Of a stretch of 64,000 bases of DNA, positions 38,967 to 56,727 are shown one piece after another. The translations under genes were made by a program, and so were the position numbers. The first letter of the stretch is position 1. Every line of letters starts with the position of its first letter. The notes beneath the pieces are model-generated. The model saw only the letters and a program-made list of their open reading frames with translations, had not been told where the DNA came from and searched no databases. This stretch comes from Sinimarinibacterium sp. NLF-5-8 (GTDB taxonomy: Bacteria; Pseudomonadota; Gammaproteobacteria; Nevskiales; Nevskiaceae), in assembly GCF_010092425.1 (NCBI RefSeq), contig NZ_CP048030.1, forward strand, positions 2,181,501-2,245,500. The letters run 5' to 3'.

Positions 38967-39674
38967 TTATCCGCCGCGTGGCTTGCCCGCATCAACGGGC
39001 TTGATCAGATACAGCTCCAGCGCCGGATAGAAGGGGTGTTCGGCATATTCCAGCCGCAGCAGTTGCCGCGTGGACTCAATTAGCCAGCGCGTTCTGACCT
39101 GCGGCTGCGGATGCGGCGGAAAAACGTAGTCTTCGGTAATCCGCAGCACCGGCCCGGAGTAGCCGGGCGTGACCAGCTGCGCGCGCGTGCAGCGCGCGCG
39201 CAGACGTGTGGTCTGAAGATAAACCGGATCGTCACGCAGGCGCACATAAGACAGCGCCGCAGTCAGCGGCACGCGCACGCCATCACCGCAGTCCACCGAG
39301 TCGTCGGCACGGCGCGGCGCACCCGCAAAGGATTCGGCAACATCCCGTGGCAATCCGTGGGTGTACAGCAATTGATCCTGGCTGATCTGCAGGGTCAAGC
39401 CATTTTTGCCGTACCAAGTCTGCACCCCGTCGTCCGACACCATCGCCAGCACCGCAAACGCCTGAAATTGCGCACCAACGCGCAGATACGCCGAGGCATA
39501 CGGCAGTTGTGACAGCGTCATCAGCGGCCGTCCCAATTCGGACGGCAGCTGCCCACCCTGGGTCAGTCCCTGATAAGCCACACGTCCAGTGTTGCAGGCC
39601 CCCAGCAGCAACACCGGCAGCAGGATGGCGCTGCGCATCACCACATGCCACACGTTCAAGAGGCTACGGCGCAT
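38967..39674 (-). CDS. gfcB: YjbF/GfcB family lipoprotein
   Basis: A 235-residue lipoprotein with lipobox LLGAC (Cys at residue 27). It fits the YjbF/GfcB group of exopolysaccharide-related lipoproteins: MVSDDGVQTWYGKNGLTL, a GLPRDV segment and a beta-rich body. The ATG at 39674 overlaps the end of the gfcD gene and has GGAG seven bases upstream; a shorter version starting at 39638 would still hold a lipobox. E. coli gfc and yjb operons need this protein for capsule or extracellular polysaccharide, but its molecular role is not known. Last gene of the local gfcC-gfcD-gfcB set. Confidence 0.8.
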   Translation of the reverse strand: MRRSLLNVWHVVMRSAILLPVLLLGACNTGRVAYQGLTQGGQLPSELGRPLMTLSQLPYASAYLRVGAQFQAFAVLAMVSDDGVQTWYGKNGLTLQISQDQLLYTHGLPRDVAESFAGAPRRADDSVDCGDGVRVPLTAALSYVRLRDDPVYLQTTRLRARCTRAQLVTPGYSGPVLRITEDYVFPPHPQPQVRTRWLIESTRQLLRLEYAEHPFYPALELYLIKPVDAGKPRGG

Positions 39675-41817
39675 CGAGCTGCTCCGCGGTATAACGCCCA
39701 AAAACGGAATACAGCTGACGGCCATTGCGGACTTTCTGACCGCCATCGCGCGACAGGAAGCGATACGAGAAATTCACATCACCGCGACTTCGCCCCGGCA
39801 CCAGCACACCCAGCGGAATGCGCAGATACACGCCTTTATCGAACGAGCCCTCACCAAAATCCGCCGACGACACGTTGGTCTGGGTGGCAAACGCCCCGAT
39901 CACCACGCCATTACGGAACTCACGCGCCACATCCAGCGTGGCGCCCCAGTCGCGGGCAAGATAACGGCCCGCGCTGAGCTTAACGACCACCCCCTGACGC
40001 GGCGCGCGGTAGTAGCCGGTCAGATGCCCGGTGGCCACCTGGTAATCCTGGAATCCCAGCCACTGTGCATAGCTGCGTTTCTTGACGTAGTTGAGATCCA
40101 GCCCCAGCGCCCACGCAGACGCTACCGGCCGGTAGAGGATTTCGGAAGCGATGCCGCCATACATTTCTTCCAGATAGCCGCCAGAAATACGCGCAAACCA
40201 GTCTTCGGCCAGCGGCAGCATGTAATTTGCCATCCAGCGATCAAGATACGCGGCAGATGAGCTGGTCTGAAAACGGTTCAGATCGCTACGCACGGCCGGC
40301 AGATTGCCGGACGGCGCGGGATCGTTGAGCCGATCCAGATTATTCAGGAGATTGACCCCCGCGGCCGCAATCATGCCCAGACGCGGCGTCAGTTGCAGAC
40401 TCGCAAACGGTTTGGCAACCACCTGGCCGATCAAAAAGCCATCGGCACCGCCGATATTGGTGCGAAACGCCGGCTCAATGCCGTACCGCCATGAAGGGTA
40501 GACCAGCAATTGCGGATACTGTGCCTGCGCGCGCGTGATCTCAGGGCGCGCGCTCATTGTCACCCGCTGCCTGAGCTGGTCTGTTGAAAGCTGCCCGCGC
40601 GCTTCGGCATCCAGCGTCGCCCGATCGGCCGACAGCTGCAGCGCATCCAGGCCGCCCACCACATCCACCACCTCAATCTGCTGAATCTCATCCGGCAAAC
40701 GCGCCAAGGTTTTACGCCCCACCACGCGCAAGGCATCCAGACTCGACTCACTGAGCCGGTTGGTCTGCCATAGCGTCAAGGTGCCCTGATCGGGGTCGAT
40801 TGCTGCCGCGTGCGGATAAATCTTGCTGCGCACCAGATCGGCGGTCCAGTCATTGACCCCTTGCTCACTGTCCAGCAACGGCATCTCGGCCAGGCTGGGC
40901 GGATATTGCAGATGGCGCGCAGCCGGCAATGGCGTCGGCGGCGCATGATCCCGCCCCAATCGCGGCGCAATCCCGACATGCCCGACCAGTGTATTGCCGC
41001 GCACATAGGCGACGCCGGCAAACCAGCTGCCCGGCAACTGGTAGCGCATGCCGATATTCAGCCGTGACGCCACGTCCAGACGCCCCTTGACCGGCCCCGG
41101 CCCCGGCAGGCTTTCATCGGGCACTGGCTCAATCGAGTAATCGTTGCCATCCAGCTCCAGCTGAATCGACCACGGTTTGTACGCGGGGGCCCATTCGATG
41201 CCACCGATGATGCTGGCACGACGTCCGCCAAACCAGTCACCGATGGCCGGAATGCCGCCCTGTCGGTCGGCATACGCCAGCAATTCACGATTCCTGGCGC
41301 GAGGAATCAAAGAGGCAACCGGATTACTCAGATCACCGCGCGTCCCCAGCCGCCCAAAACCCAATCCCAGCGTGGCAACCCAACGACCGAAGTGTTTGGT
41401 GGCCACAATCGATTCGCCCGCAAACAGCCCGGTTCCCCCAAGATCGCTGATCGACACCGCCACCGCAGGGCGCCAGCGCGATTCATCCCATGCGCGCACG
41501 GCCAGATCAAATGATTTGTCCTTATACGACTGGCTATTGGTCGAAATATCGTTGTAATGGCGGCTGGTGATCGCCACATAGCGCATCCCCACATGCAGCC
41601 AATCCGCCGGCTGCGCAACCAGATACAGCGTGTTGTAAGGCGAAGCGCTGGAAAATCCAAAGCCGATGGTTCCCGGCTGCGGCATCAACGCCGTAGGAAC
41701 GGTGATCAATGCAGGCGCGCCCGAGATGCCATACAGGGGTCTGCTCTCCTGCGCCTGCAGCGGGTGCGCCAGCAATGCCAGGGCCAGCAGCCACCATGTG
41801 TGCCCGTATCGGCTCAT
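39664..41817 (-). CDS. gfcD: YjbH/GfcD family outer-membrane protein
   Basis: A 717-residue exported protein with a signal peptide (WWLLALALLAHPLQA, cut about residue 22) and the YjbH pattern: an N-terminal GISGAPALITVPTALMPQPGTIGFG and a long, beta-strand-rich C-terminal half ending in aromatic-tipped strands typical of outer-membrane barrels (VNFSYRF, QLYSVFGRYTAEQL). GfcD/YjbH is thought to form an outer-membrane channel for polysaccharide. It overlaps gfcC by four bases upstream and gfcB by eleven bases downstream. Confidence 0.85.
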   Translation of the reverse strand: MSRYGHTWWLLALALLAHPLQAQESRPLYGISGAPALITVPTALMPQPGTIGFGFSSASPYNTLYLVAQPADWLHVGMRYVAITSRHYNDISTNSQSYKDKSFDLAVRAWDESRWRPAVAVSISDLGGTGLFAGESIVATKHFGRWVATLGLGFGRLGTRGDLSNPVASLIPRARNRELLAYADRQGGIPAIGDWFGGRRASIIGGIEWAPAYKPWSIQLELDGNDYSIEPVPDESLPGPGPVKGRLDVASRLNIGMRYQLPGSWFAGVAYVRGNTLVGHVGIAPRLGRDHAPPTPLPAARHLQYPPSLAEMPLLDSEQGVNDWTADLVRSKIYPHAAAIDPDQGTLTLWQTNRLSESSLDALRVVGRKTLARLPDEIQQIEVVDVVGGLDALQLSADRATLDAEARGQLSTDQLRQRVTMSARPEITRAQAQYPQLLVYPSWRYGIEPAFRTNIGGADGFLIGQVVAKPFASLQLTPRLGMIAAAGVNLLNNLDRLNDPAPSGNLPAVRSDLNRFQTSSSAAYLDRWMANYMLPLAEDWFARISGGYLEEMYGGIASEILYRPVASAWALGLDLNYVKKRSYAQWLGFQDYQVATGHLTGYYRAPRQGVVVKLSAGRYLARDWGATLDVAREFRNGVVIGAFATQTNVSSADFGEGSFDKGVYLRIPLGVLVPGRSRGDVNFSYRFLSRDGGQKVRNGRQLYSVFGRYTAEQLDAP

Positions 41818-42545
41818 GGCAGCACTTGCAGGCAATCGACATCGGGCGTGAGCAAAGCTCCGGGGGGAACCGCGCGCGGCGGGCTGCGCCACGACGCAGC
41901 GCGTGCAGGCTTCACGACAGAGGTATCGGGGTAGTGCAAAACATAACCGTCGGCCACGGCAGACGCCACATGTGCCTGCGTCAGATAATCGTCAGCCATC
42001 AGCCCGGGATGGTGTGCAAGCAACACGATTTCTCCATTCCCGCGCGCAACAAATACGGCGTGACCATAATGTGGGACGACGATCACATCGCTCGCCGCCA
42101 GCGGGGCTGACGGCTGATCCTGCCTTGGCCGTCCCCACGCCACAGGACTCATCGGTACTCGGCGAAGCCGTCCATCGAGTAACCCCTGCAACTGCTCCGC
42201 GACCATCGGATCAGTCTGAGCGTCTCCGGCAAGCAGCAGTGCCGCGTGGCGATCAACGACAGGAACACAGAGCCCTTCACGTCCCGTGACACGAGGACGG
42301 ATCGCCATTACCGCAAAGCGATCCGCCGTTGCATCTGGCCTGACTTGCGACAACGTATATTCCAGGGTTGGTCGTGTGATCTGCACGCTGACCTCGCCCG
42401 GAACAGCAACAGCACCTATGACCCTGACGTGAAAGTCCGTCGCCAACATTGATAGCTGCAGTGCCAATGCTGATGCCGGCAGCAACCCGATGCAGGCGGT
42501 CAGAACACATACGGCGCGCGTCATCGCTGAAAATCTGCGATTCAT
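41814..42545 (-). CDS. gfcC: GfcC/YjbG family periplasmic capsule protein
   Basis: A 243-residue secreted protein with a signal peptide (core VCVLTACIGLLPASALA) and a GfcC-like body with an SLBB-type start, FHVRVIGAVAVPGEVSVQ and YTLSQVRPDATADRF. E. coli GfcC has a beta-grasp domain resembling parts of Wza. The ATG at 42545 is chosen; an in-frame ATG at 42524 is also possible. The gene lies about 200 bases after the gfcA-like gene, with an intrinsic terminator between them. Confidence 0.8.
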   Translation of the reverse strand: MNRRFSAMTRAVCVLTACIGLLPASALALQLSMLATDFHVRVIGAVAVPGEVSVQITRPTLEYTLSQVRPDATADRFAVMAIRPRVTGREGLCVPVVDRHAALLLAGDAQTDPMVAEQLQGLLDGRLRRVPMSPVAWGRPRQDQPSAPLAASDVIVVPHYGHAVFVARGNGEIVLLAHHPGLMADDYLTQAHVASAVADGYVLHYPDTSVVKPARAASWRSPPRAVPPGALLTPDVDCLQVLP

Positions 42546-42692
42546 GTCCGGTAAAAAACCGCGCCGCATGTCACGACCAGGTCGCCGCGTTTCCACTCAA
42601 TCCACCAATACCGTACACCGCAAGCTGGCTGGCGCGCATCCGTTGATACCATCACGACTTTCGAGCTGCATACCTGTTTATCCAACCTGCAC

Positions 42693-43848: not shown

Positions 43849-44919
43849 ATGTTGCCAGCCCCCTTTTCAACCGATCATGTATGGATCGTATTGGCGACCA
43901 GCCTATGCTGCGTAGCCGCGTTGGCGCTGGTGCCTCGCTGGCACATCGGCTTTAGCGGCGATCGCCCCGGTCAAACCATCCAGGCTGCGCACGCGCGCAC
44001 CGTGCCGCGCATCGGCGGGGTCGGCGTTTATCTGGCCGGCTTGGCCGGGCTGTTGCTGCTGTCACCGCAACTGCCGACACTGACCCTCGATATCCTCTGG
44101 AAACTCTGGGCCTGCCTGAGCATCGTGTTTTTCGTCGGTTTGCTTGAAGACACGACGCGACGGATTTCAGCAAGCTGGCGCTATATCGCAGCCCTGGTTG
44201 CCGCCGGATTGTTCAGCTGGATGCACGACAGCTATGGCATCGCCTCGGTCGGTTTTGACCTGCTCGATCCGGGGTTCAATTCATCCGGATTGCGGTTGGC
44301 GTTTTTTGCGTTTGCCGTGGCCAGCGTTTCTCACGCCTTCAACCTGATCGACGGGCAAAACGGAGTGTGCTCAGGCGTCAGCATTCTGGTCTTTTCGGCA
44401 CTGGCGGTGACCGCCGTGCGCACCGATCAAATCGCGCTGGCACAGCTCGCCACCATCATGGCGGCCGCCAACCTGGGTTTTTTTGTGTTCAATTTCCCAC
44501 TGGGCAAGATTTTTCTCGGTGACGGCGGCGCCTATTTCAACGGCGCGATGGCAGCCGCTCTGACGGTGCTGATTGTCCAGGGTGCCGGGCGAGCCTCTCC
44601 ATGGCTGGCCATTTTGATTCTGATTTATCCGATCTGGGAAACCCTGTTTTCGATGGCCCGCCGCCTGCGCGCGCGCCAACCCTTTCATCTGGCAGACAAG
44701 CACCATCTGCATCATCTGGCTGCAGCGGCGCTCAGCGGCGCCGCGCCAAACCGTCAGACCCAATGGATTGCAGCGCCCCTTTTGCTGAGCGTGGCGCCGT
44801 TTGTGCTGAGCGCCCCGTTGCTGGCGGAACAACCGGCGCGGCTGCAATTGCTGTCGCTGCTGTTCGTGACCGGCTATTGCCTGCTTTACCGCCATCTGGC
44901 GCGGCGTGACGCGGCATGA
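43849..44919 (+). CDS. Polyprenyl-phosphate sugar-1-phosphate transferase (MraY/WecA/WbpL family)
   Basis: A 356-residue membrane protein with about ten hydrophobic segments. Signatures of the polyprenyl-phosphate N-acetylhexosamine-1-phosphate transferases are present: VPRIGGVGVYLAG, the NLIDGQNG segment, IFLGDGGAYF, and a His-rich loop HLADKHHLHHL. The usual Asp-Asp pair appears as GLLEDTT. Such enzymes load the first sugar phosphate onto undecaprenyl phosphate, starting a polysaccharide repeat. It overlaps the next glycosyltransferase by four bases. Confidence 0.88.
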   Translation: MLPAPFSTDHVWIVLATSLCCVAALALVPRWHIGFSGDRPGQTIQAAHARTVPRIGGVGVYLAGLAGLLLLSPQLPTLTLDILWKLWACLSIVFFVGLLEDTTRRISASWRYIAALVAAGLFSWMHDSYGIASVGFDLLDPGFNSSGLRLAFFAFAVASVSHAFNLIDGQNGVCSGVSILVFSALAVTAVRTDQIALAQLATIMAAANLGFFVFNFPLGKIFLGDGGAYFNGAMAAALTVLIVQGAGRASPWLAILILIYPIWETLFSMARRLRARQPFHLADKHHLHHLAAAALSGAAPNRQTQWIAAPLLLSVAPFVLSAPLLAEQPARLQLLSLLFVTGYCLLYRHLARRDAA

Positions 44920-46629: not shown

Positions 46630-47580
46630 CTACGTCTCCTTGAAAATCAATGCCTTGCCAGACAACGGGCGCAACTCACCGACCACACGCACGCTGACCC
46701 GATCGCCGTTTTTGAGTTGGCGCATCTGCGGCAAGCGAAAATTGAAGCCGCACGCGCCGGTGGGATGCAACCCACGATCCCTGACCTGTACACGAGGCAG
46801 ATCGGCCACCATGCTGCCGTAGAGTTTGTCGTTGATCAGCAGCTCAACACTGACCGGCTGCACGCTGCCGGAAGCCGCCGCCCAGCCGCTGACGCGATCG
46901 CGTTCGAAGATCAGCACTTCACCCTGGCTGTGCCAGGTCTTGGACGTGGACAGATAAGCCTCGGAGTTTTCACAGATGAACTGCTGCGCCTGCTCGCGCC
47001 GCTGCGGATCGGCAACCCCGACGAAGTCGGCCAGTGCAGCAACGAACCGGGGTTTGTCGAGCATCGCCTTTTCATACGAAAAAACCAGGGTACGGCGGCG
47101 GCTGTGCGCCAGAAAATCAAGCAGGCTACGGTATTGCACCAGCGCCTCGGCCATGTTGTCGAGCAGATCGGCGCGCACTGAAATCTGGTTGCGGTTGGCA
47201 ATCGCCATCAGATCACGGAACACCACCACATATTCTGGATTGCGCAGGTATTTTTCGAACCGGCGGATGTACGTCAACGCCGATGGCCGTTTCCAGCCCC
47301 AAACCTCGGCATGCTGATCACGCTGTGCGATCAACAGCCGCGCGCGCGAAACATCACGCGCTTCCAGCGCCTCGGCCAGCGGCACATCTTCAAACACCGG
47401 ATTGCGTTTGCCGCCGCCGAACATCTCGATGCCCAGCTGTTGCAGTGCGCCGGCCACCATGGTCGTGCCACTGCGCGCCACGCCCAGCACCACCAGCGTG
47501 CGCTGCGCAGGGCACGGCTGTTCGGCGTTGAGCACCTGCACGCCGGTATTGATCAGCGACAATGGCACGATTTCCGGCAT
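46630..47580 (-). CDS. Sulfotransferase with C-terminal beta-rich domain
   Basis: A 316-residue protein. The N-terminal two thirds have the PAPS-binding loop GVARSGTTMVAGAL (about residues 33-46) and the 3'-phosphate site VVVFRDLMAIANRNQIS typical of sulfotransferases. The last ~90 residues (from about GEVLIFERDRVSGWA) look like a separate beta-sandwich: SVELLINDKLYGSMVADLPR and GFNFRLP resemble a repeat domain found appended to other bacterial polysaccharide enzymes. It probably sulfates a sugar of the locally made polymer. The start overlaps the stop of the upstream glycosyltransferase gene by one base. Confidence 0.82.
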   Translation of the reverse strand: MPEIVPLSLINTGVQVLNAEQPCPAQRTLVVLGVARSGTTMVAGALQQLGIEMFGGGKRNPVFEDVPLAEALEARDVSRARLLIAQRDQHAEVWGWKRPSALTYIRRFEKYLRNPEYVVVFRDLMAIANRNQISVRADLLDNMAEALVQYRSLLDFLAHSRRRTLVFSYEKAMLDKPRFVAALADFVGVADPQRREQAQQFICENSEAYLSTSKTWHSQGEVLIFERDRVSGWAAASGSVQPVSVELLINDKLYGSMVADLPRVQVRDRGLHPTGACGFNFRLPQMRQLKNGDRVSVRVVGELRPLSGKALIFKET

Positions 47581-49460
47581 CAGCCACGCCCTCCGATGGA
47601 GCCAGCGCCCCGCCGTGACAGCGCGCGTTGCAGATAGGGCTGCGCGTCCGTCCTGATCGAAAAATCCTCGGCTTTGAGCGTCAGGCTCGGGTTGTAGCAG
47701 GGATCATCCTGCAGTTGTGCACCCCAGCGCTTTTGCATGACGCAGGCTTCGCGCGCCAGGCGGCGACATTTTTCAGGCGTATCGTCGGCTCCGCGCGAAG
47801 CCGACTCGTGATGGATCAACTCGGCATAGGGTGTCCACACCGTGCGCAAACCGCGCGCGCCCAGCTTCAGGCAATAGTCCACATCATTGAAGGCCACGGC
47901 CAGATGCGCGGCGTCCAGTCCGCCGAGGGCGTCGAAATCACGTTTGCGCGTCATCAGACATGCGCCGGTCACTGCGGACACCGTTTGCGGCAATCGCAAG
48001 CGCCCGCCATAACCAGGATGGTGGCGCGGAAAGTATTTGTGCGCGTGCCCCGCCGTGCCGCCAATCCCCAGCACCACGCCGCCATGCTGAATCCGCCCGT
48101 CCGGGTAATACAGCTTGGCGCCCACCGCACCAACACCCGGTTGCAGCAACTGCGCGAGCATTTCGCGCAGCCAATCGGCGTGCAGCACTTCCACGTCGTC
48201 GTTGAGCAGTAGCAACAGCTCGCCCTGCGCGTGCTGCGCCGCAAAGTTGTTGATCGCAGAATAATTGAAAGGCTGGTCATAGCACAGCACACGCACCGCG
48301 AGTCCCGGCCTTGCCTGCGCGCACAATGCGGCAAAAACGTCATGGGTCAGCGCATCACGGCTTTGGTTATCGATCAGCAACAATTCGATGTCCGGGTAAT
48401 CGGTCACGCCCAACAATTGCGTCATGCACTTCTGCAAGCGCGCACCGCCATCGCGCGTGGGGACGAGGATGCTGATTTTGGGCAGCCCCTCCGGCAGCGG
48501 CCAACGCACGCGATAGCTGGTGGGTTGCGCGCCGTCCTCAACCGGTAAGTCAAAGCGCGCGCGCAGCGCGGCCAATCCGGCCTGATGCGCATACGGTTTG
48601 GCATCACTGCTCGCTGCTGTGGAACCGCGCGCGGTGCGCCAGTGATACAGCACGGCGGGAATGTGGATGATCTGCGACGGCGGCAATTGCGCGGTACAGC
48701 GCAGCGCCACATCGTAATCCTGCGCACCGTCAAATCCGGGGCGAAACCCGCCTGCTGCATCCAGCACGCTGCGCCGGATCACCAGCAGGTGGCAAAAGTA
48801 ATTCACCGCGTACAGCAAATCCGGGTTCCAGTCCGGTTTGAAAAACGGCGTGTGGCGCACGCCATCCTCGCTGACCTTGTCCTCATCGGAATACAGCAAC
48901 CCGGCGTCCGGCGCGGCATCCAGCGCGCGCGCGACGAACGACAGCGCCCACGGCGCGAGCCGGTCGTCCTGATCCAGCAGCGCCACGAACGGCGCGTCGT
49001 CCAGCGCCAGCGCATCGGCGGTGGCTGCTGCAATGCCGCCGTTGTGGGCGCGATGGGTAACACGAATCCGTGCATCTGCGCGCGCCTGTGCGTCGAGAAA
49101 TGCGGCGATTGCGGGATCGGGCGAGCCATCGTTGGCGATGCACAGCGTCCAGTGCGGATAGGTTTGCGCGCGTACCGAATCAATGGCTTCGGCCAACTGC
49201 GATAAGTCCGGTGCATACACCGGCATCACCACCGCAAACCGCCATGCGTCGGCGCGCTGCGCCTCTTGCGCGCGCAGGGTGTCGAGTTGCGCCGCCGTGG
49301 GTTCCACGCGCGCGCACCAGCGTTGGTAGCCGCTGGGCAAGCCGCTGATGCGCAGCAATGTGTGGTGTGCGGCACGCAGTGCCGAACGAATCTGCTGGCG
49401 CTGACGCACCGGAATGTGCGCGGCCAGCGCACGGCGCGCACTCCGCAGCCATGCGTGCAT
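47580..49460 (-). CDS. Glycosyltransferase with two GT2 domains
   Basis: A 626-residue protein with two GT-A domains. The first starts at about residue 74 (AVVMPVYAPDLSQL) with ALLDQDDRLAPW; the second starts at about 327 (ISILVPTRDGGARL) with LLLLNDDVEVLHADW and FNDVDYCLKLGARG. Such two-domain proteins often make alternating linkages. It is the gene between kpsD-like and the sulfotransferase; both junctions are one-base overlaps (TGATG), so the three are co-translated. The N-terminal ~70 residues have no recognised domain. Confidence 0.9.
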   Translation of the reverse strand: MHAWLRSARRALAAHIPVRQRQQIRSALRAAHHTLLRISGLPSGYQRWCARVEPTAAQLDTLRAQEAQRADAWRFAVVMPVYAPDLSQLAEAIDSVRAQTYPHWTLCIANDGSPDPAIAAFLDAQARADARIRVTHRAHNGGIAAATADALALDDAPFVALLDQDDRLAPWALSFVARALDAAPDAGLLYSDEDKVSEDGVRHTPFFKPDWNPDLLYAVNYFCHLLVIRRSVLDAAGGFRPGFDGAQDYDVALRCTAQLPPSQIIHIPAVLYHWRTARGSTAASSDAKPYAHQAGLAALRARFDLPVEDGAQPTSYRVRWPLPEGLPKISILVPTRDGGARLQKCMTQLLGVTDYPDIELLLIDNQSRDALTHDVFAALCAQARPGLAVRVLCYDQPFNYSAINNFAAQHAQGELLLLLNDDVEVLHADWLREMLAQLLQPGVGAVGAKLYYPDGRIQHGGVVLGIGGTAGHAHKYFPRHHPGYGGRLRLPQTVSAVTGACLMTRKRDFDALGGLDAAHLAVAFNDVDYCLKLGARGLRTVWTPYAELIHHESASRGADDTPEKCRRLAREACVMQKRWGAQLQDDPCYNPSLTLKAEDFSIRTDAQPYLQRALSRRGAGSIGGRG

Positions 49461-51133
49461 CAAAGGCGCAGCACCACGCCTGCCGACAGCGCAATCTGAT
49501 ACAGCACTTGCACCAAATCTTTGGTCAACTGGAATTTTTTGCTGTCCACCTTGGGCAGCACCATGATTTCATCGCCCGGCGCAAGCTCGGTGCCACTGCC
49601 CCAGCCGAGGCTGGCTTCAACCATTTCGCCATTCGGGTGCATGATGAAAATCTTGCTCTTGTTGGCGTTCTGGGTCAGCCCGCCCGCTTGTTCGAGGTAG
49701 TACTTGAGGCCCTTACCCGGAACGTGGACGAAGGCGGTGGGAAAGAACACCTCGCCCTGCACCGCAACGGTGTTGGCCTGCCGGGGGATGCGGATCACGT
49801 CCTGATCTTCCAGCGCCACGTCGGTCAGATCGGCGTTGGTCTGCAACACCAATTGTCCGCGCGGTTCGATGGTGCGCGCGCGCTCGACGAACTTCATCAC
49901 CAGTTCGGCCTCACGCACGCGCAGCGTGGCTTCTTCCACGGAACTGGCGCGGGTGTTGAGCACCGCTTCTTCGAGCTTGCGCAGCATTTGATCCAACACC
50001 TGTTTCTGCCGCACCGCGACGCTTTTGCGATACAACTGAAGCCCTTGCAGATTGGAACGCTCGGTGGTCTGGACTTTCTGGAGCAAATCGCCCAGGTGGC
50101 TGGCATACGGCAGCGAATACTGGCTCAACCCCTGATATTCACCTTCGACCTTGGCGATGATGCTGCCGATCTGGCGGTCGGCGAATACCGACACTTCATC
50201 GCCCGACACCACCTGCTCCTGCCGCGCTTGCTCGGCGTCCACCGGCAGGTACACGGCTTCGCGTTCCGGGGTCTGGTTTTTGATCAGCATGACGTGCGTG
50301 GCGCGCGGGTCGATGCCCGCCATCGTCAGCAAATCGGCCAATGCAATCGTGCCGTCAAACTCGAACTGCGCGGCGTTGCGCACCAGCCCGGTCACCGTCG
50401 CCACGGATTTTTTCGGCCAAACGACAATCGTGTCGCCATCGCGGAACTGAAACAGCGGCAACTGGCCGCGCAACAGAAAGTCGTACAGGCTGAAACGCGC
50501 CACTTCGCTGCCGCCGCGCAGGATGCGAACGTCGAGAAAACTGCCGGTTTGCTCGTCGATGCCGCCCGCCTGATCGAGAAAATGCAGCAGCGAATCCGAC
50601 GCATACGCGCCAAACAGCCCCGGCGCCTTGACGTAGCCGGTGACGAACACTTTGACCGGCTCGGCCGCCGCCAGCGCCGCGTAGACGCCAACGTTTTCGC
50701 GGTACACCTGCTGGATGCGCTGCGTGACCAGCGCGTTGAGCGCTCCGTTGCGCACGTTGGCGACCTGCACAGGGCCAATGCGCGGCACAAAGATGTTGCC
50801 TTGCGAATCCACTTCCAGCATCAGCGCCAGATCGACCGCGCCCCACAGCTTGAGGTCGATGCGATCGCCGACGCTGACCAGATAATCCGGATTGAAGCCC
50901 TTGAATGACTGCGCGGCAAAACGTCCCCGAAACAGGTCGGCACCAAACACGCCCTGCGCGCGCGCCTGTCGATCAACCTGCACGGCTTCGGGAATCGGCG
51001 GCGCCTGCGACTCGACAGATCGGGCTTCCAGACTCTGCTGCTGCGCCAGCGCCGCCTGCAAGGAGGCGTCTTGCGCCACAGCGGCGCCAACCACGCCCAG
51101 TCCCACCAAAAACAACACGACTTTATTCAACAT
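49460..51133 (-). CDS. kpsD: Capsule polysaccharide export protein, KpsD family
   Basis: A 557-residue secreted protein with a signal peptide (KVVLFLVGLGVVGAAVA, cut before QDAS). It has a poly-export domain (DYLVSVGDRIDLKLWGAVD) and several SLBB-type segments (VFVTGYVKAPGLFGAYA, VTGLVRNAAQFEF, VAVQGEVFFPTAFVHVPGKG). KpsD carries group 2-type capsule through the periplasm and outer membrane with KpsE and KpsMT, whose genes lie directly upstream. ATG at 51133 chosen; a GTG at 51142 is also possible. Confidence 0.88.
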   Translation of the reverse strand: MLNKVVLFLVGLGVVGAAVAQDASLQAALAQQQSLEARSVESQAPPIPEAVQVDRQARAQGVFGADLFRGRFAAQSFKGFNPDYLVSVGDRIDLKLWGAVDLALMLEVDSQGNIFVPRIGPVQVANVRNGALNALVTQRIQQVYRENVGVYAALAAAEPVKVFVTGYVKAPGLFGAYASDSLLHFLDQAGGIDEQTGSFLDVRILRGGSEVARFSLYDFLLRGQLPLFQFRDGDTIVVWPKKSVATVTGLVRNAAQFEFDGTIALADLLTMAGIDPRATHVMLIKNQTPEREAVYLPVDAEQARQEQVVSGDEVSVFADRQIGSIIAKVEGEYQGLSQYSLPYASHLGDLLQKVQTTERSNLQGLQLYRKSVAVRQKQVLDQMLRKLEEAVLNTRASSVEEATLRVREAELVMKFVERARTIEPRGQLVLQTNADLTDVALEDQDVIRIPRQANTVAVQGEVFFPTAFVHVPGKGLKYYLEQAGGLTQNANKSKIFIMHPNGEMVEASLGWGSGTELAPGDEIMVLPKVDSKKFQLTKDLVQVLYQIALSAGVVLRL

Positions 51134-51148
51134 GACGTTCACGGGCGT

Positions 51149-52273
51149 TCAATCACGATGATCCTGAATCGTCGCCACGATCAGGCTCAGGACAAAATAA
51201 ATCAGGTTCAGCAACACAAAAAACGTCAGCGTCCAGTACGCCGTGCGCGGGCGCTCGTCGTCGTCGGGCAGGTTCGGCGCGGCCATCGACACCAGATACT
51301 TGCCCTTGCGCGCGGTTTCCAGCCGGGTTTTTTCCATCGTCGCCAACGCGCCTTTGTAGACCTCGGTCGCCAGTTTCAGATCGACCTCGGCATCCTGATA
51401 CGCCAGCATCACTTCGTTGAGTCCCTTGCCGGAGCGCGCGCCCGATGCGCCGCCCACCTGCTTGCTGCGTTCCGCACTGACCTGCTGTTCCAGTGCGCGG
51501 ATGCGCGCGTTGACGGCAGACACTTCCGGCGCGCGCGCGTTCAGGTACGACAACAGCGCGCTGCGTTCGGTGCGCGCCTTGACCAACTCCTGCATCAGCC
51601 CGGTCAACACCATGCCGGACACCTGCGTTTCGCCTTCGGGACTCAGCACGTCGTACTGCTGTTGCAGGGTGATCAGGGCTTGCGAGGCGGCCTTGAGACG
51701 CTGATGCGCGCCCGCCAGTTCATCGGTGACGAACGCCAGTTGATCGCGCGCCAGTTGTTGCGCCACGTCATTGACGAATTTTTCGGCGCGCTTGACCAGC
51801 AACTGCGTCACCTGCTGCGCATACGCAGGATCGAACGCCACGAATTCCACATCCAGCACATAGGTTTCATCGTGCACCTGCGTATGCAGGCGCTGCTGGT
51901 AATAGCGCAGAAATTCTTCGCCGGACGCATCGTGCGCCAGCCGCGAGACGATATCCACGTCGGGCGACGAAAAATGCGCGCGCAACGCCAGTTCGGCATC
52001 CAGATAGTCCAGCATGGCACGCGAGCGCATGAAGGTTTCGACGATCAGCGCATCGGTTTTGCTGCGCTGGCCACCAATCGTCAGCAGACCCAGCGTCATT
52101 TCTGCCGCAGCGGCCATCGCCGAATTGTCTTGTTCCACCATCACCTGCGTGCGGCTCACGTAGCCCTTGGACGCCCATAGCGCCAGATACAGCGCCACCA
52201 GCAGCGTCGGCAACAGCACGGCCAGCGCATACCGCTGACTGCGTGACGGCCACGTTATGGATCGTGCGTTCAT
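51149..52273 (-). CDS. kpsE: Capsule export inner-membrane protein, KpsE family
   Basis: A 374-residue polysaccharide co-polymerase-like protein. It has one transmembrane segment near each end (ALAVLLPTLLVALYLALW at about 16-33 and WTLTFFVLLNLIYFVLSLIV near the C-terminus) and a long helical periplasmic region between, with coiled-coil character (around KARTERSALLSYLNARAPEVSAV). This topology is that of KpsE/BexC, which bridges KpsMT to KpsD. Confidence 0.87.
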   Translation of the reverse strand: MNARSITWPSRSQRYALAVLLPTLLVALYLALWASKGYVSRTQVMVEQDNSAMAAAAEMTLGLLTIGGQRSKTDALIVETFMRSRAMLDYLDAELALRAHFSSPDVDIVSRLAHDASGEEFLRYYQQRLHTQVHDETYVLDVEFVAFDPAYAQQVTQLLVKRAEKFVNDVAQQLARDQLAFVTDELAGAHQRLKAASQALITLQQQYDVLSPEGETQVSGMVLTGLMQELVKARTERSALLSYLNARAPEVSAVNARIRALEQQVSAERSKQVGGASGARSGKGLNEVMLAYQDAEVDLKLATEVYKGALATMEKTRLETARKGKYLVSMAAPNLPDDDERPRTAYWTLTFFVLLNLIYFVLSLIVATIQDHRD

Positions 52274-52274
52274 A

Positions 52275-52943
52275 TCAGTTCTGTTGATCCTTCAGATAAT
52301 CTTCGATGGCCTGCTTGATGTCGTCGTAATAACGCACCTGTCCGGCCTTGACGTACAGCCCCGCTTCGCAGTCCCGACGCAGCGCATCCAGACTGTGACT
52401 GACCATGATGATGCTCGACCGCCCTTTTTTCTCGGCAAACGCTTTCTTGGCTTTTTCCCGAAACCGCGCATCGCCCACGGCGGTCAGTTCGTCGATCAGG
52501 TAATAGTCGTAGTCGAACGACATGCTGATGCCAAACGCCAGCCGCGCCTTCATCCCCGACGAATAGGTTTCCACCGGACGATCAAAAAAATCGCCCAGTT
52601 CCGAAAACTGGCGAATGAACGCCACCCGCTCGCGCGCCGTTGCCGCATCGTCGCCGCAAATCCGGCACACGAAGCGCGCATTGTCGCGGCCTGAGATTTG
52701 CTGCGCAAAGCCACTGGTCAGCCCCAGCGGTGGCGAAATGCTGCCCTCACTGCGCACCGTGCCGCGATCCGGCAGTTCCAGCCCGCCGATGATGCGCAGC
52801 AGCGTGCTTTTGCCCGCACCATTGCGTCCGACGATGCCAATGTGCGTGCGCGACGGCAGCGTCAGGCTCAGATCGCGCAGCACGGTGTAGCGCGCAAGCC
52901 CCTGCAACGGATACGACTTGGTGATGTTGCGCAGTTCGATCAT
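52275..52943 (-). CDS. kpsT: Capsule ABC transporter ATPase, KpsT family
   Basis: A 222-residue ABC ATPase. Walker A is GRNGAGKST, the signature is ETYSSGMKARLAF and Walker B is DYYLIDELTAVGD; IELRNITKSYP begins the protein. It lacks the C-terminal sugar-binding domain found in Wzt-type O-antigen ATPases, so it belongs to the KpsT/BexA capsule group. Its ATG overlaps the kpsM stop. Confidence 0.92.
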   Translation of the reverse strand: MIELRNITKSYPLQGLARYTVLRDLSLTLPSRTHIGIVGRNGAGKSTLLRIIGGLELPDRGTVRSEGSISPPLGLTSGFAQQISGRDNARFVCRICGDDAATARERVAFIRQFSELGDFFDRPVETYSSGMKARLAFGISMSFDYDYYLIDELTAVGDARFREKAKKAFAEKKGRSSIIMVSHSLDALRRDCEAGLYVKAGQVRYYDDIKQAIEDYLKDQQN

Positions 52944-53758
52944 TACAAAAGCCGATACAGATAACGCCGGTACGCCGCCAGCCCGACGAACATCAGCACC
53001 CCGATGCACAACCACACATAGCCCAGCGACGCGGGCGAGTCATAGCCGGGAATCACTGCCGCGCGGCTCAGATCGACCGCGTGCAGCACCGGATTCCACG
53101 TCAGGTAATGGCGCTGCGCTTCGGGAATCATGCCGATGGTGAAGAAGATGCCGGAGATGAAAAAAATCGGCCGCATGGCGATGCCAAACACGCGCTTGAG
53201 GTTCTCATACACGGTACCGAACACCTCGAACACCAACCCCAGCAACAACCCCAACAGGTACAGCGAGATCAGCGCCACCACCAGCAACAGCGGATCGGCA
53301 ATCGTCAACGGCATCCCCAGCCACCAGCCCCAGCCAACAATGAACAGCACCGCCACAGCCACCATCATCAGCGCATCAACCAACGTGCGCGCGATCATCA
53401 TGTCGATGGGACGCACCTGCCGATAATTGAACAGCCCCTTCAAACCGCTGCACACGCCCTGCGCACGCGATACCGCGTGCAGAAAAATAAACGCCGGCAC
53501 CGCACCAAACACGAAAAACACCACCGGATGCGCGCCATAAATCAGCGCACCCGCGCCGCGCAGCCCCGCGTGCAGGCCGGTCAGAATCGCCACCGTCGCC
53601 ATCGGCTCCATCAACGCCCAGAAATAGCCCAACCGCTGACGGCCAAACTGGTTTTTCATCTCACGCAACAGACACGCGTGCAGCGAGGTCAGAAACACCT
53701 CAAGACTGCCACGTCCGTGTCGGCGCGGCGGCGACGCGATGGGCACATCACCGTTCAC
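52943..53758 (-). CDS. kpsM: Capsule ABC transporter permease, KpsM family
   Basis: A 271-residue permease with six predicted membrane segments and the ABC-2 pattern. EMKNQFGRQRLGYFWALMEPM at the N-terminus is characteristic of KpsM/BexB proteins. The start is a GTG that overlaps the stop of the upstream fusion gene (GTGA), giving normal length; the frame is open much further but without homology. Confidence 0.9.
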   Translation of the reverse strand: MNGDVPIASPPRRHGRGSLEVFLTSLHACLLREMKNQFGRQRLGYFWALMEPMATVAILTGLHAGLRGAGALIYGAHPVVFFVFGAVPAFIFLHAVSRAQGVCSGLKGLFNYRQVRPIDMMIARTLVDALMMVAVAVLFIVGWGWWLGMPLTIADPLLLVVALISLYLLGLLLGLVFEVFGTVYENLKRVFGIAMRPIFFISGIFFTIGMIPEAQRHYLTWNPVLHAVDLSRAAVIPGYDSPASLGYVWLCIGVLMFVGLAAYRRYLYRLL

Positions 53759-56595
53759 GCATGGCTCCCGCGTTGGATTTCCTTCCACTCGTTTTTGACG
53801 AACATGCTCTGAAACATGCGCGGGTCTGCCTGTTTGAGCTGCGTCGTCGCGCGTTGCAGAAAGTGATACAGCTTGGCGTGCGGCGTGTAGACGATGCGCC
53901 GCCCGGCAATGCGCCGCACCGCTTCGCAATAGAGATTGTCGGAGTCGTAATGCGGCGCGCGTGCGTAGTCCAGCAACCCCACTTCATTGAGTGTACGGCG
54001 TGGAATGTACACGCAGAAAAACGGCGCAAACCGCAGCCCCACATAGCCGCGCTGCACGTCCAGCAACGGTTCCAGCACGTTGTTGTGGTGCAGAGACAGG
54101 TTCACCTCGGCTTCACGCGCCGGGTTCATCGCCGGATTGTGGATCTGGATGGTTTGCGTGTGCGCGGGCAGCACTTGGCGCGGCAGCACCAGTCCCGCAT
54201 CCGGGCAGTCGTCCAGCACCTGCTGCATGGCCTGCAACCAGCCTGGCGTGACCAGCGCATCGTTGTTGAGCAGGATCACATCGGCCTGCGCGCCCGTCAG
54301 CGCGTCGGCACATTCGATGCCCTGATTGACGGCGTAGGTGAAGCCATAGTTGTGCTCGTTCTGGATCACCGTGACGTTGGGCTGGCGACTCAGTTCCGCC
54401 AGATACGCGCGCACGTCGGCACCAGAGGCGTTATCCACCACGATCAGTTGATGCCCCGGCGGCGTGAACGTCTGCACCGAGGCCACGCACAGGCGCAGAT
54501 AGTCCAGACATTCAAAGCTGGGGATGATCACCGCCACCTTGCGCGCGGCCATTGCCGGCGACACCGTCAGCAGCGGACGCGGCAAGCCATGGAGCCGATC
54601 CAGTCCGGGGACGTTCGGCACATCAGGCAGCAGGTCGATCAGACGCGGCGCGCGGCGCGCGGCCATGTCCGGCACGTTATCGGGCAGCGCAGGTGCGCCG
54701 TACCGCGTGCTCAGCACGCACGGCACGGAGACCAGCGCCGCGCGTTCGGCAGCCTTGAGGATGAAATCCCATTGCGCGAGCGGCAGTTCCAGCGTGGCAT
54801 CAAAGCCCGCCACCGCATCCACCAACGCACGCCGATGCAGGATCGCCGTGCCATCGACGACCGGCTGATTTTCCAGCAGTGGGGTGCAGGCGACGCTGTA
54901 ATGCAGCGCTTGCAGGGTGTCATCGGCAGCGTGCTGCGCCTGCGCGCAGTAGGCCAGCTCACACCCCGCCTGCGCGTTCAGCGCAGCGGCGAGGATGGCC
55001 ACGAAATCGGCATCCAGCACGTCGCCCGCACGCACATAGCCGACCCATTCGCCGCGGGCCAGCGCCAGGGCCGCATTCAACGCCGCAGCGTTGTTGATCT
55101 CTGCCGGCAGCGTGATCCATTCCACTGATTCGCCCAGCGCTTCGATTTGCGCCGCCGCAGGCAACAACACCTGCACGCGCGGCCAGCTTTGCGCCTGCAC
55201 GCTCGCCAGCGTGCGTCGCCATTGCGCAGGCGTCCCGGAACCGAGCAGCACCAGACTCACCCACGGCGCATCCGCTGCGGGCTGCGCCTGACGCGCCAGA
55301 TGCTGGCGCACCGTGTGCATGTGTCCCAAAACGTATTTGTCCTGCTCATCCAGCGGCGCGCGGATCGGCGACAAAAACATCGACTGTCGTTCGTAATCGG
55401 TGAAGTCCGCAAACACCGGCCGCTTGCTCACCAAGGCTTTTTTCGTCGCCGCTGGCGGGACGGTCACGACGGATGATGCTTCTGCTGCCGCCTGCGCTGC
55501 TGTCGCCGGCGCTTGTTTTTTGTGGTCGGCAGCAGCGCCCAGTGCCACATACCGGCGACCTTCACCACGGCCAAATGTCAGGTAATGCAGCAAGGGGTTG
55601 AGGCCGGCTGCGGCCACATCCGGATACGCCGAACAGTACGCGGCGCTGTCGAATGCCGCACTCGGCGCGCGCTGCTCAGCCCCGCCAAAACGTAAAAAAT
55701 GCAGCAAGGGATCCATCCCGGCTGCGGCCACATCCGGGTTGTGCGCCAGATAGAAGCGGGCATCGAACAGCCCGCTGCGCCGCAGCTGCCGACAGGCCTG
55801 CCGCTCACGCAGGTGCTGCACGATGCGCACCGGCAATGCGGATTTTTGCCGTTGCGGCGGCTCAAAGGGCTTTGAATCCTTCATCCACTCACTCAAGTCC
55901 ATATTCAACAACTGCGCCAGCGCGCGCACCTGCGGGCGATACATCGCCTCCAGCGCGCGCCGCAAAGGCGCCGGCAGGGGCGCCCCATTGCCTGCAAACA
56001 CACGCTGGCCACATCCCTGCAACATGGCCTCTGTGGGCGCCGAAACGCCCAGATGCGCACAAACCTGCGCCAAAACCGCCTGCGGCTGCGACTCGATCTG
56101 CTCATAACGCACGATCAGCAGCGCCTGCGCACCAAAAACCTGTCGCCAACGCGCGATGGCGCCTGCGTAATCACCGCGCGCGCGCGATCCCGCAGAACGA
56201 AAATGATCCAGATACCACCTCTGGCTGGCCTCTGCCGGCGTCATTTCCGCGCGCGCCAGCGCCATCTGCGCCGACGACCACGCCCGCTCCACGGGGTTGC
56301 GCAGGATATAGATCAGACGCAAATCGGGGGCTGCACGATGAATCTGCCGGATCACCTCCAGCGGCAGCGCAGCATATGCAGGGGTGATTTCGCCTTCGAT
56401 CCGCAGCGGGTCCGCAAAACGCGCCAGATAAGCCGCAATACCCTCCGGCGTCGGCGCACGATTCCAGAAATGGGCTTCCTTGCCCAACGGAAAACCCAGC
56501 TGCGGATGCTGGCACAACTGCGCATACAGCCAGCTGGTTCCCGCTTTTTGCGCACCGATGCCTAAAAAACCCAGCATACCCGTCCATGAACCCAT
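53755..56595 (-). CDS. Sulfotransferase-glycosyltransferase fusion with NPDV-type repeats
   Basis: A 946-residue, four-part protein. Residues 8-235 form a sulfotransferase with PAPS motifs GAQKAGTSW (14-22) and YILRNPVERAWS (96-107). Residues 277-309 and 314-347 are two copies of a short repeat (HNPDVAAAGMDPLLHFLRFG and AYPDVAAAGLNPLLHYLTFG). Residues ~445-640 look like a GT2 domain with a weak metal site (GYVRAGDVLDADF). Residues ~686-920 are a second GT2 domain with LIVVDNASGAD and VILLNNDALVTPGW. It is first of the minus-strand run fusion-kpsM-kpsT-kpsE-kpsD-GT-sulfotransferase. A later ATG at 56577 is possible. Probably adds and modifies sugars on the exported polymer. Confidence 0.85.
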   Translation of the reverse strand: MGSWTGMLGFLGIGAQKAGTSWLYAQLCQHPQLGFPLGKEAHFWNRAPTPEGIAAYLARFADPLRIEGEITPAYAALPLEVIRQIHRAAPDLRLIYILRNPVERAWSSAQMALARAEMTPAEASQRWYLDHFRSAGSRARGDYAGAIARWRQVFGAQALLIVRYEQIESQPQAVLAQVCAHLGVSAPTEAMLQGCGQRVFAGNGAPLPAPLRRALEAMYRPQVRALAQLLNMDLSEWMKDSKPFEPPQRQKSALPVRIVQHLRERQACRQLRRSGLFDARFYLAHNPDVAAAGMDPLLHFLRFGGAEQRAPSAAFDSAAYCSAYPDVAAAGLNPLLHYLTFGRGEGRRYVALGAAADHKKQAPATAAQAAAEASSVVTVPPAATKKALVSKRPVFADFTDYERQSMFLSPIRAPLDEQDKYVLGHMHTVRQHLARQAQPAADAPWVSLVLLGSGTPAQWRRTLASVQAQSWPRVQVLLPAAAQIEALGESVEWITLPAEINNAAALNAALALARGEWVGYVRAGDVLDADFVAILAAALNAQAGCELAYCAQAQHAADDTLQALHYSVACTPLLENQPVVDGTAILHRRALVDAVAGFDATLELPLAQWDFILKAAERAALVSVPCVLSTRYGAPALPDNVPDMAARRAPRLIDLLPDVPNVPGLDRLHGLPRPLLTVSPAMAARKVAVIIPSFECLDYLRLCVASVQTFTPPGHQLIVVDNASGADVRAYLAELSRQPNVTVIQNEHNYGFTYAVNQGIECADALTGAQADVILLNNDALVTPGWLQAMQQVLDDCPDAGLVLPRQVLPAHTQTIQIHNPAMNPAREAEVNLSLHHNNVLEPLLDVQRGYVGLRFAPFFCVYIPRRTLNEVGLLDYARAPHYDSDNLYCEAVRRIAGRRIVYTPHAKLYHFLQRATTQLKQADPRMFQSMFVKNEWKEIQRGSHA

Positions 56596-56727
56596 CAAAG
56601 CGCGAAATTATGCACTGCCGGGCAAGGATTGCCTAACCCATCGCGCATTGTTTTCCTTGGGCTTTGCAGCCAACTTGGCTACCCTGTCGCCCCTTTTTTG
56701 TGCAATACAGAGAACATGGCGGCTGCA

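Follow-up and report, generated by a model that had tools for sequence, protein, structure and literature searches.

On the minus strand of a 64,000-nucleotide stretch of the Sinimarinibacterium sp. NLF-5-8 genome (contig NZ_CP048030.1, positions 2,181,501 to 2,245,500; hereafter the window), a single gene at 53755-56595 encodes an N-terminal sulfotransferase (ST), a pair of 38-residue repeats and two glycosyltransferase (GT) domains of the GT-A type, and stands at the head of a capsule-type export operon. The reading favoured here, with moderate confidence, is that this fusion protein is a cytoplasmic ST-polymerase making a sulfated surface polysaccharide for export through KpsMTED, in which the repeats act as a spacer. 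The N-terminal ST would transfer sulfate from 3'-phosphoadenosine-5'-phosphosulfate (PAPS) onto the glycan, and the C-terminal GT-A domain, together with partner GT2 proteins of the locus, would add sugars; the first GT-A domain would be a degenerate remnant, probably structural. The two repeats and the helix leading into them would form a small rigid helical spacer that keeps a constant distance between the ST and the end of the growing chain. Because the repeats would space the two active sites, sulfation and elongation would be coupled, and the chain would be sulfated during building, before export. The architecture, the conservation of the PAPS motifs, the missing catalytic residues of the first GT, the operon and the recurrence of the ST-repeat-GT order in relatives are observed directly; which substrate the enzyme acts on, its activity, the spacing by the repeats and the moment of sulfation are what we infer from them.

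The four-part architecture had been proposed in an original prediction made from the DNA letters, and it is borne out by Pfam and by alignments. The repeat length given there, 33 residues, was wrong, and this period was discarded, as the copies align at 38. A frame error joining two genes had been named as a ground for rejecting the architecture; the frame is open across all 946 residues counted from the ATG at 56595, with zero internal stops, as known from the assembled sequence alone (a 3.2-Mb genome on one contig), and an artefact of that kind was discarded. A TTG lies in frame at 56598, just before this ATG. Because the methionine aligned with Met7 is invariant across six aligned STs, and its equivalent is the first start codon after a stop in one of them, the real start of the protein may be Met7, at 56577.

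The N-terminal domain is predicted to be a carbohydrate-type PAPS sulfotransferase with both PAPS motifs intact. It is matched by Pfam Sulfotransfer_3 (PF13469) at 6.4e-18 (66.2 bits, cut-off 27) and by Sulfotransfer_1 (PF00685) at 2.1e-13 (50.7 bits, cut-off 22). It contains the motifs GAQKAGTSW (residue 14), KEAHFW (residue 39) and RNPVERAWS (residue 99), which we take to be the PAPS loop for the 5'-phosphosulfate, the catalytic Glu/His and the 3'-phosphate site, respectively. Loss of PAPS-binding residues, the second ground for rejection that had been named, was checked in an alignment, and K17, G19, T20, E40, H42, R99, P101 and S107 are invariant in all six sequences. A phmmer search of the PDB gave 3rnl as the top match (4e-17) with 3-OST among the next, and Foldseek on the domain also placed 3rnl first (2.7e-13, TMt 0.70), followed by NDST1 and 3-OST. 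The last two are heparan-sulfate sulfotransferases, which act on polysaccharides. The fold, both PAPS motifs and the Glu/His of the KEAHFW stretch are common to these three proteins and the window ST, which differs from them in being joined to repeats and GT-A domains. The genome encodes one adenosine 5'-phosphosulfate kinase for PAPS supply.

Pfam Glycos_transf_2 matches the whole fusion protein at 4.5e-20, with its best stretch in the second GT domain; the first is supported mainly through relatives, its aligned Enterobacter partner matching Glycos_transf_2. The GT alignment comprised the window protein, a giant protein from genome G011 (described below) and two plasmid homologues. In the second domain VDNAS, LLNNDA and HYxSD are conserved in all four sequences, and this domain looks intact. 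In the first, VLLPAAA replaces the IVVDDG of the plasmid proteins and RAGD replaces their DSDN; the domain is homologous to GT-A and probably inactive in the window protein. Of the two GT domains originally predicted, then, both stand as GT-A by homology, but, with the first one degenerate, it is unlikely that both are active: the weak metal site ascribed to it was an understatement, as the nucleotide-binding Asp is lost together with the DxD motif. The G011 protein has EGGD in place of DSDN and keeps the Asp at the first site (VSDG); since the DxD was already lost in this relative, its loss in the window protein is not a sign of recent decay. No viral relatives of the GT part were found.

The repeats follow the consensus FDxxxYLxxNPDVAAAGxNPLLHYLxxGxxEGRxP with a 38-residue period. 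The two window copies share 19 identical residues, and their alignment score is 74 against a best of 22 in 1000 shuffles. A profile made of 40 viral copies only, which had been picked with a first profile that included the window copies, gave these two scores of 59.4 and 54.1 bits; the next best score among 575 open reading frames (ORFs) of the window was 6.2 bits, and the best among 1000 shuffles of the fusion protein was 6.5 bits. AlphaFold2 modelled the pair from an 18-row alignment as compact three-helix units after a 19-residue helix, with a mean predicted local distance difference test (pLDDT) score of 89.9. Foldseek of the pair against the PDB gave no match at E<=10, and in a second PDB structure comparison one chain was aligned, with Z below 2; a library of viral structures gave 20 matches at E<=10 and none at 0.001, the best four being giant-virus proteins (E 2e-3 to 7e-3, 26-34% identity). 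The weak giant-virus matches include a GT2 glycosyltransferase (E 3e-3) and an FkbM-type methyltransferase. The window pair matched no Pfam or NCBIfam family and reached 0.007 at best in PHROGs, and an eight-repeat array reached 1.8e-4 in Pfam and 4.9e-5 in NCBIfam, both below cut-off, and 8e-4 in PHROGs.

As originally predicted, the fusion gene is the first of the exporter operon and overlaps kpsM: its stop codon (53757-53755) shares GTGA with the GTG start of kpsM at 53758, a 4-base overlap. It opens a run of seven same-strand ORFs, itself included, that reaches down to 46630 (Table 1), and the kpsM, T, E and D exporter set is complete among them. Because their matches fall below the curated NCBIfam cut-offs, these genes are best regarded as kin of kpsMTED and not as named orthologues. 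The KpsC/KpsS Kdo (3-deoxy-D-manno-oct-2-ulosonic acid) linker enzymes (PF05159) were found nowhere in the genome, with a positive E. coli control, which makes a group 2/3 capsule of the classical Kdo-linked type unlikely. At 43849-44919, a WecA-like gene (NCBIfam TIGR02380, 1.9e-25, far under cut-off) would fit a polyprenol-linked glycan.

Table 1. Features of the fusion gene and its operon (window coordinates).
Feature	Position	Strand	Description or basis
Whole fusion gene	53755..56595	-	946 aa: ST, 2 x 38-residue repeats, degenerate GT-A, GT-A
Predicted PAPS-dependent ST domain, residues 7-239	55879..56577	-	Pfam, PDB phmmer, Foldseek, motifs
19-residue Arg-rich helix, residues 256-274, directly before repeat 1	55774..55830	-	AlphaFold2 models
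Repeat 1, residues 275-311, three short helices	55663..55773	-	Viral-copy profile 59.4 bits; AlphaFold2
Repeat 2, residues 312-348	55552..55662	-	Viral-copy profile 54.1 bits; AlphaFold2
GT-A domain 1, residues about 441-640	54676..55275	-	Alignment with two plasmid homologues keeping both motifs
GT-A domain 2, residues about 684-930	53806..54546	-	Best Glycos_transf_2 stretch; VVDN, LLNND, HYDSD kept
kpsM-like permease	52943..53758	-	4-base overlap with fusion gene; Pfam/NCBIfam
kpsT-like ATPase	52275..53015	-	At most 246 aa; Pfam/NCBIfam
kpsE-like inner-membrane protein	51149..52273	-	NCBIfam BexC_CtrB_KpsE 1.2e-83, under its curated cut-off
kpsD-like polysaccharide export protein	49460..51142	-	Poly_export and SLBB
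Double GT2 protein, same operon	47580..49463	-	Pfam
Second ST-like protein of operon	46630..47580	-	Sulfotransfer_3 9e-7, above cut-off

The closest relatives of the window ST are stand-alone proteins, found in genomes G011 (56% identity), G006 (42%) and G046 (40%) and on contigs of Competibacteraceae (56%) and Thioploca (48%). The gene lies two ORFs upstream of kpsM on the same strand in G006, near kpsM with an opposite-strand GT gene in between in G011, and upstream of a double GT gene and kpsM in G046. At the G011 locus a second ST gene (L031:2755-3564; Sulfotransfer_3 4.7e-18) directly follows the stand-alone relative. A candidate ST at the corresponding place in G006, in the second ORF before kpsM (L033:2902-3735), has PAPS-like motifs by eye and no Pfam match at 0.01, and was set aside. 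Residues 353-941 of the window protein find their closest relative, at 47% identity, in the C-terminus of a 1592-residue giant protein at the G011 locus. Giants in G000, G006, G011, G039, G046 and G049 have an N-terminus that is ST-like but of a different kind (GMHRSGTS), followed by a charged spacer, three to seven repeats and several GTs. The window gene looks like a stand-alone ST to which the polymerase end of a giant has been attached and, because the sister loci have a separate ST and one of them has the repeat-GT part inside a giant, it appears to be a lineage-specific rearrangement of a recurring ST-repeat-GT architecture. This order recurs with three groups of sulfotransferase, which supports the general idea of the original prediction that sugar addition and sulfation would be physically coupled, as does an E. 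coli plasmid example (pKTa005_1, below) whose cluster includes PAPS synthesis genes.

Several other proteins show variants of this layout. The G000 giant (L029:12745-19422, 2226 residues) belongs to the same genome as the window gene, about 156 kb away, and runs from an ST-like N-terminus through a GT2 domain in the charged spacer and five repeats to GT2, GT4 and GT92-like parts. On the Paracoccus yeei plasmid pLM20P4 (L168:4780-10203), a 493-codon gene with a below-cut-off ST match is separated by 42 bases from the next gene, which encodes six repeats with GT2 and GT4 parts; here the same modules occur as neighbours. A protein of the Azospirillum argentinense plasmid p6 (L075:4681-7899) has a methyltransferase, then eight 38-residue repeats arranged head to tail, and a GT-like end; it sits between a Wzt with a C-terminal domain and a permease, a methyl counterpart of the layout.

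Two plasmid systems of enterobacteria come close to the window in different ways. Enterobacter pCAV1043-97 (NZ_CP011590) carries kpsD-M-T-E, immediately followed by a gene for a coiled coil with two repeats and then by a repeat-GT-GT gene; E. coli p417957-CTXM (NZ_MH454107) carries the same gene pair with the first gene shortened, and no kps match was found in the 32.5 kb examined. As in the window, repeats are followed by two homologous GT-A domains (9e-107 and 4e-114 with a profile of the window and G011 proteins), but the modules are split over two genes, a coiled coil replaces the ST and the first GT keeps its DxD. The heptad signal of the two coiled coils is reached by 2 and 1 of 300 shuffles, respectively. 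E. coli plasmid pKTa005_1 encodes WP_341857793 (L071:6306-11669; L076), a 1787-residue protein with Sulfotransfer_2, four repeats, WbsX, GT2 and GT4, in which 13.8 copies of a 42-base tandem array code for a 14-residue coiled-coil repeat. It adjoins an ATP-binding cassette (ABC) exporter whose Wzt has Wzt_C, a domain also found in Azospirillum, and the cluster includes cysD-cysN-SLC13-cysC. The genes cysD, cysN and cysC serve PAPS synthesis. WP_341857793 resembles the window protein in uniting ST, repeats and GTs in a single polypeptide encoded next to an ABC exporter, and differs in its Sulfotransfer_2 domain, long tandem coiled coil, WbsX, Wzt C-terminal domain and cysDNC genes. The first 995 bases of its gene occur in one of 5426 E. 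coli genomes, its own. This protein is a candidate sulfate-capping chain terminator, and its gene is perhaps more interesting than that of the window.

The alternative that survives best, although doubtful, is that the window protein itself terminates chains and carries its own ruler, in the manner of WbdD or WbbB: the ST would cap the non-reducing end with sulfate, growth would stop, and the repeats would set the distance between capping and polymerising. According to PMC11231755, a capping enzyme, spacer and C-terminal GTs follow one another in the same order in Klebsiella O7 ORF6 and O12 WbbB, and methyl, methyl-phosphate and Kdo caps are known cases in which a tethered modifier controls chain length; end-capping with length control is described for WbdD/WbbB in PMC11231755 and PMC3482155. 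With these proteins the window system has in common an N-terminal modifier, a spacer and an ABC exporter, and with WbbB and O7 ORF6 also the C-terminal GTs; it differs in that the modifier is an ST, the spacer a helical repeat and not a coiled coil, and KpsT lacks the Wzt C-terminal domain. The string 'Sulf' is absent from the main text of PMC11231755. Plasmid-borne group 3 capsule clusters with ST genes among their genes are described in PMC10433991. Besides pKTa005_1, with its ST, 14-residue tandem array, repeats, GTs, Wzt_C exporter and PAPS genes, the giants of G006, G049 and G039 speak for termination, as they combine an ST-like N-terminus, repeats and GTs with a spacer of heptad periodicity (signal reached in 8, 0 and 0 of 300 shuffles, respectively).

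Several features of the window point the other way. About 34 residues separate the ST from the repeats, without heptad periodicity (as strong a signal arises in 290 of 300 shuffles), and in half of the six giants, too, the coiled-coil reading does not pass this test. The short KpsT gave no Wzt_C match at E<=1 in Pfam, and recognition of a chain end by the window exporter is for that reason not expected; in addition, a capsule exporter can do without a terminating residue, as in H. influenzae b according to PMC11231755. Termination is accordingly a weak reading for the window. It is likewise no more than a tentative suggestion, and an unlikely one, that the window protein is a reduced form within a so far unrecognised ST-repeat-GT class in which sulfate is the cap and the repeats, perhaps of an undescribed fold, replace or extend a coiled-coil ruler.

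The wider distribution of the repeats bears on a less probable alternative, the idea of the original prediction that they attach to the polymer or anchor the protein at the KpsMT exporter. Of 398 genomes sampled from the phylum and queried with the repeats only, 47 gave a repeat match (E<=1e-8), as did 107 of 72,556 plasmid records (1e-5). A domain survey covered 40 regions from 33 of the 47 repeat-positive genomes, with frames running from stop to stop, and 38 of these regions contained 47 repeat-bearing ORFs, three of them clipped at the region end. Pfam partners (overlapping counts) were Glyco_trans_1_4 in 19 of the 47, Glycos_transf_2 in 16, RgpF in nine, WsaF_N in five and WbsX in four; among the matches listed (25 of 37 Pfam families), single-case partners included RTX repeats, Ig domains and a methyltransferase. 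The ST profile of the giants matched two of the 47 ORFs, one of which Pfam backs below cut-off (7.5e-5). Two RTX proteins, one of them also a metalloprotease, and a Peptidase_S74 protein of a phage contig bear repeats as well. Viral contigs L064-L068 and L077-L096 encode proteins with 38-residue repeats, one with Peptidase_S74. A protein at L143:596-5086 has AMP-binding, carrier and thioesterase domains with two C-terminal repeats, which places the module outside polysaccharide synthesis as well; part of it matches the ST profile of the giants, with no Pfam support. The repeats are a widespread module without a named family above cut-off in the libraries searched. The module is often, not always, joined to glycan enzymes, and it is not bound to exporters.

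Docking is suggested by the 4-base overlap with the adjoining kpsM and by matches to both kpsM and kpsT in five of eight related repeat regions (L031, L032 with L033, L035, L036 and L037), as well as in the Enterobacter, E. coli pKTa005_1 and Azospirillum plasmid regions; glycan binding, for its part, could explain repeats in both cytoplasmic glycan enzymes and RTX or phage proteins. On the other hand, no PDB fold matches the repeats, and repeats specific for the exporter are not supported, because they are also found in RTX, metalloprotease-like, phage-contig and methyltransferase-linked proteins. The repeat protein of the same genome, the G000 giant, has no exporter match in the 35 kb examined (L029, L030), nor is there one in L034. 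Because repeats occur without exporters and, weakly, in giant-virus glycosyltransferases, docking on the exporter cannot be their general role.

Least probable is a recent accidental fusion of little function, with an ST that works alone and a decaying GT part, or an assembly artefact: the single genome of occurrence, the first GT without catalytic residues and the second, larger ST-repeat-GT protein of the same genome would fit it, but the 946-residue frame is open, the motifs of the second GT are intact, the operon overlap is kept and the DxD of the first GT is already gone in the G011 relative.

Returning to the ST-polymerase favoured above, a number of observations weigh against it. The exact fusion was found in one of 85 genomes of the order, twelve of which hold repeats, and in one of 369 genomes of the class, with the two best candidates scored per genome; in both cases the genome was the window's own. 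A pattern scan of genome contigs returned two relatives, matching over the ST only, and no second fusion, and none of the 72,556 plasmid records covers 80% of the fusion protein. Pfam support for the ST of the giants is below cut-off in G006, G011, G039 and G046 (4e-5 to 2.3e-3); that of G000 reached 3.3e-4 in one Pfam scan and was unlisted at 0.01 in another, that of G049 was unlisted at 0.01, and in both the motif was read by eye. In the giants of G000, G011 and G046 the heptad signal is not significant, being reached in 171, 233 and 248 of 300 shuffles, respectively. That the repeats act as a spacer is deduced from their distribution only, and the RTX and phage-contig proteins bear repeats with no glycan polymerase domain found. 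The full-length AlphaFold2 model has a mean pLDDT of 58.2, with the GT domains at low confidence, and is too weak for domain packing.

Elsewhere in the operon, the C-terminal part of the second ST-like protein (residues about 219-301) has no Pfam match; this part recurs in L037 (1847-3067), in the same frame as the kpsM match, and in L034 (4294-6156). Three genes at 38967-42596 are reminiscent of the polysaccharide proteins YjbF, YjbG/GfcC and YjbH; the two that were scanned, 39664-41892 and 41814-42596, gave no NCBIfam match at 0.1.

The ST-repeat-GT architecture appears to be a recurring one that was not found described in the literature searched: the search returned no paper with the repeat strings, nor one combining NPDV, repeat and glycosyltransferase, and no description of the architecture was found in titles and abstract openings. 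If sulfate capping were true, length-controlled, sulfate-terminated capsules or O antigens would constitute a new kind of ABC-exported glycan. Since an ST version recurs, and in one case brings PAPS genes along, sulfate capping or coupled sulfation can be put to a direct test. Naming the repeat module and solving its structure would help to annotate many glycosyltransferases, and an enzyme in which polysaccharide synthesis and sulfation are fused could be useful for producing heparin-like polymers.

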